Shown in pieces: positions 31,175 to 36,395 of a stretch of 57,440 nucleotides of DNA. A model generated the notes under the pieces. It had not been told where the DNA came from. It saw only the letters and a list, made by a program, of their open reading frames with translations, and searched no databases. Made by a program: the position numbers and the translations under genes. Position 1 is the stretch's first letter; the number at the start of each line of letters is the position of its first letter. The DNA is taken from NCBI GenBank assembly GCA_937132035.1, contig CAKZOA010000323.1, forward strand, positions 1 through 57,440, given 5' to 3'. The stretch comes from an uncultured Desulfobulbaceae bacterium (GTDB taxonomy: Bacteria; Desulfobacterota; Desulfobulbia; Desulfobulbales; Desulfocapsaceae).

Positions 31175-32410
31175 ATGGATAGAGTTTTGAAAAGAATCGT
31201 CATAACCGGCGTTGGACTTGTGGCTCCGAATGCAGACAATCTGCGGGACTATCGTCAAAAGCTTCTCAAAGGCGAGAGTATCATTCAGGAAATTGATCTG
31301 CGCTATTTCGGCAAGGCGCCTGCCGGTATTTGCTCCTTTGATGAAACACTCTACAGGAAAAAGAAAGAGAATAAAAAAGGCACCAGAGCCGGCTGCATAG
31401 GCGTCTACTGCGCCAACGAGGCACTCCGTGATGCCGGTCTTGCCGATGACCATTATGACGCATCCCGTACAGGCGTCTACATTGGTCTCACGGAACATGG
31501 AACGGTTGAAACCGAGAATGAGGTCTACAATATCAGCCAGTACGACTACAATGTTGCCTATTGGACCCACCATCATAACCCCAGGACAGTGCTCAATAAT
31601 CCAGCTGGAGAAATCACCCTGAACCTCGGCATAACCGGCCCTCACTACTCCATTGGAGCCGCCTGTGCTGCCGGCAATGCCTCCCTTATCCAGGGCGTAC
31701 AGATGCTTCAGCTTGGGGAGGTGGACATGGCCCTTGCCGGCGGAATTTCAGAATCAACGCAATCCTTCGGTATTTTCGCAAGTTTCAAGGCACAAAACGC
31801 CCTGGCCCATGGGGATAATCCCAGCCGTGTCTGCCGTCCCTTTGATACAAACAGAAACGGTATCGTCGTCTCCGAAGGAGGCTGCATATGTGTTTTGGAA
31901 ACCTTGGAGAACGCTCTACAGAGAGGAGCTCAAATATACGGCGAAATAGTAGGATACGCCATGAATTCCGATGCCAAGGATTTTGTTTTGCCTTTTGGCG
32001 AAAGGCAGTCGCAGTGTATGGAACTGGCTCTGGCAAAAGCGGGGATGCGTCCTGATCAGATCGACATTATCAATACCCACGCTACGGGTACAAAGCAAGG
32101 TGATATCGAAGAATGTCGGGCTATTAGAAATACCTTCCGCGAGTGTCCCGACACCTATGTCAACAATACCAAATCCATCATTGGACATGCCATGGGGGCT
32201 GCAGGTGTTCTTGAACTTGCCGGAAATCTTCCCGCCTTTAAAGACAACTATGTTCACCCGACAATCAACGTCTCCGACCTCGACCCCGAGTGCAAGATCG
32301 ACAACCTTGTCATCGATGAGCCGGTGACACGAAATTCCATCACTACCATCCTGAACAACTCGTTTGGCATGGTAGGTATTAACTCAGCGATAATTGTAAA
32401 AAAAATATGA
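31175..32410 (+). CDS. Beta-ketoacyl-ACP synthase (FabF/KAS II-like)
   Basis: RIVITGVGLVAPNA...GAACAAGNASLIQG (active Cys)...INTHATGTKQGD (His)...NNTKSIIGHAMGAAGVLE (Lys/His)...NNSFGMVGINSAII. Confidence 0.9.
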   Translation: MDRVLKRIVITGVGLVAPNADNLRDYRQKLLKGESIIQEIDLRYFGKAPAGICSFDETLYRKKKENKKGTRAGCIGVYCANEALRDAGLADDHYDASRTGVYIGLTEHGTVETENEVYNISQYDYNVAYWTHHHNPRTVLNNPAGEITLNLGITGPHYSIGAACAAGNASLIQGVQMLQLGEVDMALAGGISESTQSFGIFASFKAQNALAHGDNPSRVCRPFDTNRNGIVVSEGGCICVLETLENALQRGAQIYGEIVGYAMNSDAKDFVLPFGERQSQCMELALAKAGMRPDQIDIINTHATGTKQGDIEECRAIRNTFRECPDTYVNNTKSIIGHAMGAAGVLELAGNLPAFKDNYVHPTINVSDLDPECKIDNLVIDEPVTRNSITTILNNSFGMVGINSAIIVKKI

Positions 32411-32441
32411 AACCCATAAAAATATCCCTTTTCTGAAAAAA

Positions 32442-32469
32442 ACCATAAAATTGTCGCCATTTTTATGGT
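32442..32469. repeat. AT-rich hairpin ACCATAAAA/TTTTATGGT between KAS and ACP genes
   Basis: 9-bp perfect inverted repeat with a 10-nt loop. Confidence 0.5.
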
Positions 32470-32562
32470 ATATTGAAAGGTTCACTTTTAATATCAAAAA
32501 TCAATTATCCTTTTTATACCTTTACATATATTAATCTACAGCGAATGTAACTGGAGAAACAA

Positions 32563-34207: not shown

Positions 34208-34239
34208 ACACTAATACCTAAACACCTCGACCATTTGCC

Positions 34240-35655
34240 ATGCCGATACCTTTTGATTCTTTAGAAGACAACTATGATGTCATCGTCATCGGCTCCGGAC
34301 TCGGCGGCCTGACGGCGGCGAACCGTATGGCCTATTGCGGGTATAAAGTACTTATTCTCGAATACCATCACCAGCTTGGCGGTCTTGCCACCTGGTTCAG
34401 GCGCAAAGGACACATTTTCGATATTTCTCTTCATGGTTTTCCGCATGGTATGGTTAAAACCTGCAAAAAATATTGGAATAGAGAGATAAAAGACTCCATC
34501 GTCCAACTCAAAAGCATTGTTTTCGACAATCCACAGTTTTCCTTAAGAACCACCTTCGATAAGAGCGACTTCACTCGTCTGCTTGAAGAGATGTTCGAGG
34601 TGCCGCGCAGAACCATAGACGACTTTTTCGCAACGGTTTCGAAAATGAACTTCTATGACGATCAGTCGATGACAACCCGCGAGCTGTTCGAGAAATTCTT
34701 CCCCGGTCGAAGCGACGTCCACCGTCTCCTCATGGAACCGATAACCTACGCCAACGGCTCCTCTCTCGATGACCCGGCGATCACCTATGGTATAGTCTTC
34801 TCCAACTTTATGAATAAAGGGGTCTTTACCTTCGAGGGAGGAACCGATAAACTCATCATGATGATGGTTAAAGAACTTGAAAAGAACGGCGTTTCCATCG
34901 CCACTCGTGCCAAGGTTGAACAGATTTTTGTGGAAAAGGGCAAAGTTCGCGGGGTCTACGTCAATGGGAAGACGATTGCGGCGAAAGCGGTTATATCCAA
35001 CAGCGGCATTACCAATACCGTGCAGAACCTCACTGACAGCGATCACTTTTCCGATGAATACCTGCACAGGGTTAATGCCATACGGGTCAACAACTCGAGC
35101 TGTCAGGTTTATTTTGGCCTGAGTCGTGACAGTTCCATAGAACATATCGGTGATCTCCTCTTCACCTCCACTGCCGAAGAGTTCGATTCCGAAGAGCTCC
35201 TCGATCGGGACACCAAGTCAAAAACCTTCTCCATCTACTATCCCAAAACACGACCGGGCCATGATCGATACACAATAGTTGCCAGCATGAATGCCCGCTA
35301 TGACGACTGGACTTGTCTCGACGACCAGGCATACGCCGAGGGTAAGGCCGATCTTATCCGCAGAACAACGCTTGATCTGCAAAGATACGTCGCCGACATC
35401 GAGGATAAAATTGACTGGGTGGAGGCGGCTACGCCCAAAACCTTCAACCGGTATACCCTGCACACTGCCGGCACCTCTTTTGGAACGAAATTCGAAGGGC
35501 TCGATATTTCAAGGACAATCTTCAAGGAGGTAGCAGGCCTTTTTCATGTAGGCTCCGTGGGAATAATCATGTCAGGCTGGCTCGGAGCCATAAACTATGG
35601 CGTCATTGTCGCTAATGACGCCGACGGCTACCTACGGGGCAGAGAAAACAGATGA
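34240..35655 (+). CDS. CrtI/retinol saturase-like NAD(P)/FAD-dependent oxidoreductase (copy 2)
   Basis: [56 protein letters not shown]-terminal [29 protein letters not shown]. Confidence 0.88.
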
Positions 35656-36395
35656 TTTTTGATTTTTGTGACCAGCATGTCATTGTCACAGGGGCAACAC
35701 GAGGCATAGGCAAGGCCATCAGCATGGCCTTTTTGCAGAAAGGCGCCAGGGTTATAGGCGTATATGGCGGCAACAATCAAGCAGCAGACGAATTGCGGGA
35801 AGAGGTACGCTCCCTGTCCGGTTCCCTTTCCCTCTTCCAATGCGATGTCTCCAAGGAATCAGAGGTACGTCAACTCTTCGGCGATATCGAGCGGAAATTC
35901 AACAGTCTCGACATCCTGGTGAACAATGCCGGTATACGCCGCGACAGTGTTCTCGCTCTTATGGACGCCGATGATTGGCAGCGTGTGCTTGATGTCAATC
36001 TTACCGGCTCTTTTCTCATGGCCAAAGAAGCCGTTCTTATGATGATGCAGAAAAAATACGGGAGGATAATCAATATAACCTCTCCCGTATCTCACCTCGG
36101 ATTCGCCGGCCAGGCCAACTACGCCGCCTCTAAAGCCGGACAGGTTGCCATGACCAAGAGCCTCGCTAAAGAAACCGCGCGCAAGAAGATTACCGTCAAC
36201 TGTGTTTCACCGGGATTCATCGCCACGGATTTTATCGACGATCTCACCAAGGAACAGCTTACTGCGTACAAAAAAATGGTGCCCATGCGGCGCTTCGGCA
36301 CAGTCGAAGAAGTGGCAGATACTGTTCTTTTTCTGTCTTCCAGAGCCGCATCCTACATAACCGGAGCGGTTATCGATGTTAACGGCGGCCTCTAG
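35652..36395 (+). CDS. SDR family 3-oxoacyl-ACP reductase (FabG-like)
   Basis: [36 protein letters not shown]...[17 protein letters not shown]...[35 protein letters not shown]...[12 protein letters not shown]. Confidence 0.92.

Follow-up and report, generated by a model that had tools for sequence, protein, structure and literature searches.

The stretch of DNA analysed here (the window) is the 57,440-nucleotide contig CAKZOA010000323.1 (C323) of an uncultured Desulfobulbaceae bacterium of the order Desulfobulbales (assembly GCA_937132035.1, genome G000: 4.4 Mb in 499 contigs, 93% complete, 5.5% contamination), and the system in question is an operon of five genes on its forward strand. These encode a FabF-type beta-ketoacyl-acyl carrier protein synthase (KAS, 31175..32410, PF00109/PF02801), a dedicated acyl carrier protein of 83 aa (ACP, 32563..32814, PF00550, E 5e-10) with its attachment serine in a DSxD motif, two flavin adenine dinucleotide (FAD) proteins, one of the CrtI/amine-oxidase fold (Crt1, 32822..34207, PF01593, GTG start) and one of the CrtI/CrtD fold (Crt2, 34240..35655, PF01593), and a FabG-like short-chain dehydrogenase/reductase, a 3-oxoacyl-ACP reductase (35652..36395, PF13561, 1.7e-65). 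The original prediction had described five co-directional, tightly spaced genes with an overlap between the last two, and indeed all five frames are open on the plus strand, their Pfam matches agree with the families proposed, and Crt2 and FabG share 4 bases. Tight spacing holds from ACP onward (7 bases to Crt1, and 32 between Crt1 and Crt2) but not for KAS and ACP, which lie 152 AT-rich bases apart, with a median of 150 in the loci of relatives. A strong terminator-like hairpin (30944..30975, plus strand, 14 pairs followed by a T run; a consensus match only) sits 3' of lpxC and forms the upstream border. The operon is flanked by lpxK-lpxC on one side and, downstream of FabG, by tolQRAB-pal-tlyA on the other. 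An assembly artefact is unlikely, as the genes are arranged in the same way on a 950 kb contig of G251, a genome from the same genus.

The KAS retains the catalytic residues Cys164, His302, Lys333 and His338, as do nearly all of its orthologues in our alignment. At the FabF gate Met399 replaces Phe, and nearly all orthologues likewise read GM[VL]G where FabF has GFGG, a change that we did not see in any other aligned ketosynthase of the genome. The protein shares only about 33% identity with the housekeeping-type FabF of the genome (on C358) and is thus distinct from core fatty acid synthesis, as had been proposed for the whole set. The ACP orthologues are 51-93% identical to the ACP of the window.

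Crt1 and Crt2 share about 23-25% identity. The GxGxxG motif is invariant in Crt1, and Crt2 is the better conserved of the two (53-79% identity among orthologues); nearly all of its best 80 named homologues come from Desulfobulbaceae or Desulfocapsaceae. AlphaFold models (mean predicted local distance difference test score 92 for Crt1 and 89 for Crt2) have the CrtI/amine oxidase fold, and the closest solved structure is the gamma-carotene desaturase 4rep (template modelling scores 0.78 and 0.74). Fold and FAD-binding motif are therefore shared with CrtI/CrtD and carotenoid isomerase, yet identity over the fold is 14-19%, and against the CrtI family TIGR02734 the two proteins score 59.9 and 89.2 bits where the cut-off is 238.1. 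The best NCBIfam match of Crt1 is carotenoid isomerase, far under the cut-off of that family. In a phylogenetic tree each protein forms a clade of its own (support 95/98 for Crt1 and 100/100 for Crt2), apart from the CrtI of the phylum rather than grouping with true carotenoid desaturases, on long branches that leave the deep order unresolved. G000, at its 93% completeness, has no match to phytoene/squalene synthase (PF00494). We thus rejected a carotenoid or hopanoid role, in keeping with the earlier opinion that carotenoid synthesis was unlikely.

The window holds a second group of genes, missed by the original prediction, 7 kb downstream of the operon on the minus strand. They encode OleD, a 3beta-hydroxysteroid dehydrogenase-type reductase (43402..44394, PF01073), OleC, of the AMP-binding beta-lactone synthetase type (44391..46064, PF00501, start probably near 46022), and OleB, of the alpha/beta hydrolase type (46009..47058, PF00561), for which homology runs from ~46839, so that translation probably starts inside the open reading frame (ORF). 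These proteins are 52, 54 and 56% identical, respectively, to those of an operon in a relative (L020) in which the ole genes are joined to the five. The oleA gene lies on a separate contig (C212:6603-7628). Its product matches the OleA structures of X. campestris (3row and others) at E 2e-62, the next family following at 1e-21, and the active-site Cys, His, Asn and Glu positions align and are kept; a PDB search with OleC gave no match at E 1e-30. An orthologue of FabI (67% identical) is found at C90:4060-4860. As an aside, in the window's genus (L118, L121) two small conserved genes of 187-207 aa come after oleA, and response-regulator-domain genes lie nearby.

Gene neighbourhoods were compared within Desulfobulbales and across the phylum, by annotating about 80 loci of relatives with the genes of the window and of L020 as references. 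The set turned out to be conserved well beyond chance, in sulfate-reducing as well as cable bacteria, and to have FabZ, FabI and Ole partners that had gone unnoticed. All five core genes stand together in 61 of the 78 annotated Crt2 loci; many of the remaining 17 are cut at contig ends, are second Crt2 copies, or belong to cable bacteria with extra ORFs in between. In the Desulfobulbaceae type, Pfam classes describe a single run KAS-ACP-Crt1-Crt2-FabG-FabZ-FabI-OleA-B-C-D (L020-L023, L084, L085, L103, L114 and others). Desulfocapsaceae loci usually continue with FabZ-tolQRAB-pal-tlyA, and in many of them oleD-oleC face the operon downstream. The window has this second layout minus FabZ, and oleDCB are near the operon in G251 as well. 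Another family orders the genes KAS-ACP-Crt1-OleABCD-Crt2-FabG-FabZ-FabI (L033) and a third OleA-KAS-ACP-Crt1 (L162). That independent layouts keep the same partners is strong evidence for a shared pathway. It had also been stated that no dehydratase accompanies the genes; this is true of the window's genus only, since 58 of the 61 loci with an intact core have a linked dehydratase of the FabZ type. Between FabG and TolQ (36396-36661) we found no trace of a FabZ remnant, and the G251 operon likewise has no FabZ.

Some loci depart from these layouts. In cable bacteria and relatives (L083, L087, L088, L094) several extra ORFs lie between the operon genes and FabG was not found nearby. G085 has three copies of Crt2 (L032, L034 and L035), of which one lies in an operon and the other two stand alone; OleA was not detected in this genome. 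Finally, L163 (G198) shows a reduced set, KAS-ACP-Crt1-FabZ, that lacks Crt2, FabG and ole next to it and may reflect a different use of Crt1.

We then scored operon and hydrocarbon genes in 146 genomes of the order and in 198 genomes across the phylum. In the order sample Crt1 was present in 104 genomes and OleA in 101; 97 had both and 38 neither. Cultured carriers include Desulfogranum marinum DSM 2058 (operon plus ole), Desulfopila aestuarii DSM 18488, Desulforhopalus singaporensis DSM 12130 and Desulfofustis glycolicus DSM 9705, and one family of the order has neither operon nor oleA. Three of the four genomes with OleA only (G237, G247, G303) retain the operon-type FabZ, and their operons are hence probably broken by contig ends. 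Among the seven with Crt1 only, the Crt1 of G198 and of G209 is divergent (39% identity), and G267 and G271 are incomplete. The phylum sample has OleA in 21 genomes, and these divide completely: 11 (six families) have Crt2 without PfaD, the marker that we used for the Pfa polyunsaturated synthase, and 10 (eight families) have PfaD without Crt2, with no genome carrying both or neither. Consistently, PfaD (TIGR02814) is found in 0 of the 146 order genomes, that of the window included. In PfaD genomes the distance from pfaD to oleA is often about 14-15 kb, and in two of the Pfa genomes (G025, G161) ketosynthase ORFs, of pfa type at L164, lie directly upstream of oleABCD. The Crt operon thus occupies the place of pfa, and it seems to substitute for the Pfa synthase in providing OleABCD with acyl chains.

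What such a supplier delivers is known from other bacteria. Pfa provides a 16:4 chain from which OleA makes C31:9, and Shewanella pfa mutants lose this product (PMC6463001, PMC4882568); in Geobacter bemidjiensis, which produces C31:9, pfa and ole lie in tandem (PMC4882568, PMC3098273). Closer to our organism, Rattray et al. 2009 (PMC2649909) report C31:8 and C31:9 hydrocarbons in Desulfotalea psychrophila, in which a polyketide-type synthase of polyunsaturated fatty acids (PUFA) was not found, together with three phytoene-dehydrogenase-like genes (DP2405, DP2406 and DP1860, the first two adjacent) among fatty-acid genes, from which the authors proposed a novel anaerobic PUFA pathway.

Taken together, we consider it likely that the operon is a dissociated, oxygen-independent synthase of polyunsaturated acyl-ACP that supplies OleABCD. 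In this pathway the KAS would extend chains carried on the dedicated ACP, and the beta-carbon would be processed by FabG, a FabZ-type dehydratase and a FabI-type reductase (the latter on C90 in G000). In the window's genus either a housekeeping FabZ would serve or a dedicated dehydratase would not be needed. Crt1 and Crt2 would place or shift double bonds on the ACP-bound chain; going by sequence they are putative acyl-ACP desaturases or double-bond isomerases, and desaturation, which would need an electron acceptor such as quinone, is the more likely of the two. OleA would then condense two chains in head-to-head fashion, with OleC, OleB and OleD turning the condensation product into a long hydrocarbon. 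KAS, ACP, FabG, FabZ and FabI could thus stand in for the ketosynthase, ACP, ketoreductase, dehydratase and enoyl reductase domains of Pfa, every activity of which is matched in the operon except the FabA-like isomerase domain. Compared with the Pfa-OleABCD systems of Shewanella and G. bemidjiensis (hentriacontanonaene), the operon shares oleABCD, often co-operonic with the acyl supplier, and probably the class of product, C31 polyunsaturated; it differs in that its supplier consists of separate proteins resembling type II fatty acid synthase (FAS II) plus two CrtI-like flavoproteins. By analogy, since D. psychrophila makes both and the operon exchanges with Pfa, the product would most likely be a hydrocarbon of the C31:9/C31:8 type.

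The role of the operon at the level of the system is well supported, while several observations weigh against the pathway as drawn. An operon FabZ is missing in the very genus of the window. The step assigned to Crt1 and Crt2, CrtI chemistry on a non-isoprenoid acyl-ACP, is a prediction from sequence; CrtI-like homologues in Kuenenia are described as inactive on phytoene (PMC4790861). G199 is a true exception, with FabI-OleA and no Crt1. Conversely, the operon occurs where OleA was not detected, in G011, G049, G085 and G003 of the phylum sample and G198 and G209 of the order sample, and may therefore have further uses. Related genomes are not independent samples, although the chance figures for the mutual exclusion with Pfa treat them as such; the pattern does span 14 families. 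Finally, the comparison with D. psychrophila assumes that the DP2405/DP2406 locus is orthologous to the operon, which is probable from taxonomy and the adjacent pair.

The most serious alternative keeps the same pathway, and overlaps with the one we prefer, but has Crt1 and Crt2 act in a redox-neutral way, as isomerases or saturases comparable to carotenoid isomerase or retinol saturase; double bonds would be created by FabZ-type dehydration in the course of elongation, as in Pfa. Since the operon has single-domain counterparts for the ketosynthase, ACP, ketoreductase, dehydratase and enoyl reductase of Pfa and none for its FabA-type isomerase, the flavoproteins could fill that place, and the match of Crt1 to carotenoid isomerase, weak as it is, points the same way. 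However, the nearest folds of both proteins are desaturases (4rep, 4dgk), although this is not decisive between the two chemistries, and the window's genus has no operon FabZ. We regard this alternative as possible, if rather unlikely.

Considerably less probable is that the operon makes ordinary monounsaturated fatty acids for membranes under anaerobic conditions, as a substitute for FabA/FabB, and that OleABCD merely uses them to yield C31 mono- to trienes. All FAS II activities are present in the operon, OleA is not detected in some carriers, and D. psychrophila is rich in monounsaturated fatty acids that are isotopically close to its hydrocarbons (PMC2649909). Nevertheless, those hydrocarbons carry 8-9 double bonds according to the same text, the operon exchanges one for one with a polyunsaturated synthase, and the 38 of 146 order genomes with neither operon nor OleA indicate that it is not a general membrane-lipid pathway in the order.

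Very little speaks for ladderane-like or otherwise cyclised acyl chains, an idea that the original prediction had raised by pointing to candidate ladderane loci of anammox bacteria and by proposing desaturation or cyclisation of an ACP-bound chain. The comparison was fair in that similar genes exist in Kuenenia and Desulfotalea: the kuste3603-3608 cluster of Kuenenia groups FabF, ACP and CrtI-like genes, and synteny with Desulfotalea has been reported (PMC2649909, PMC4790861). The candidate ladderane clusters of Kuenenia (kuste2802-2805, 3335-3352, 3603-3608) resemble the operon in grouping FabF, ACP, FabZ and CrtI-like genes, but they also contain radical S-adenosylmethionine (SAM) enzymes, as well as FabF paralogues that lack the catalytic residues. 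There is no radical SAM enzyme among the operon genes and no inactive FabF paralogue, the KAS being catalytically canonical; ladderane-like gene sets in G000 sit on other contigs (C349, C35 and C36), and ladderanes were not found in D. psychrophila (PMC2649909). We hence rejected the ladderane-type reading, so that of the two roles originally offered desaturation stays a sensible one and cyclisation does not.

Equally improbable is a modification of the acyl chains of lipopolysaccharide or lipid A, suggested by the position between lpxK-lpxC and tol-pal, by tol-pal-tlyA, which in the window's family mostly lies 3' of the operon, and by tolQRAB 5' of it in L028: lpxKC lies upstream in few relatives only (L056, L058, L110, G251), in other families alaS precedes the operon and ole follows it, a terminator separates lpxC from the operon, and the Ole/Pfa pattern would be left unexplained. 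With neighbours varying in this way between families, we did not retain the lpx/tol linkage as a functional clue.

To our knowledge, all known cases of oxygen-independent synthesis of polyunsaturated chains in bacteria proceed via Pfa synthases. We read the operon as part of a variant head-to-head hydrocarbon pathway; it possibly represents an oxygen-independent PUFA synthase of a new kind. With somewhat less assurance than for the supply of OleABCD, we lean towards seeing in it a second way for bacteria to make polyunsaturated acyl chains, independent of the first and without need of oxygen. It would consist of separate FAS II-like proteins and two CrtI-fold flavoproteins that act on acyl-ACP, be exchangeable with Pfa before OleABCD, and be widespread among Desulfobulbales, including the cable bacteria. 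The idea that such genes make PUFA is that of Rattray et al. 2009 (PMC2649909), who read the D. psychrophila loci via ladderanes and, in the text consulted, name neither ole genes nor a conserved seven-gene module nor any exchange with Pfa; as far as we searched, the conserved module, its linkage to oleABCD and the exchange are what is added here. We found no later literature linking Desulfobulbales, ole and polyunsaturated hydrocarbons beyond the Pfa work and Rattray 2009, in a search limited to open-access papers. If true, this route would account for how obligate anaerobes, D. psychrophila among them, come to produce C31:9, would bring CrtI-fold flavoproteins into the group of enzymes that act on acyl-ACP, and would offer a culturable, testable model for the CrtI-like enzymes with a putative role in ladderane synthesis.

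Two further features of the genome deserve mention. The ladderane-like set on C349 (positions 1-10705, L018) comprises a KASIII-like gene, a 444-aa gene, a CrtI-like gene, a radical SAM/B12 gene, whose product combines PF04055 with a B12-binding domain, and a fused pair of ketosynthase domains. C35 and C36 (L016, L017) carry aryl-polyene-like sets with several KAS, ACP, acyltransferases, an aromatic amino acid lyase, a dehydratase and an MMPL-methyltransferase fusion; two C36 proteins have CxxxCxxC-like radical SAM motifs that were recognised by eye only, with no Pfam match at 1e-6. Within the window, a CspA-like cold-shock gene (47673-47873, plus strand) adjoins oleB in divergent orientation. 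In other bacteria the polyunsaturated C31 hydrocarbon is reported to increase at low temperature.

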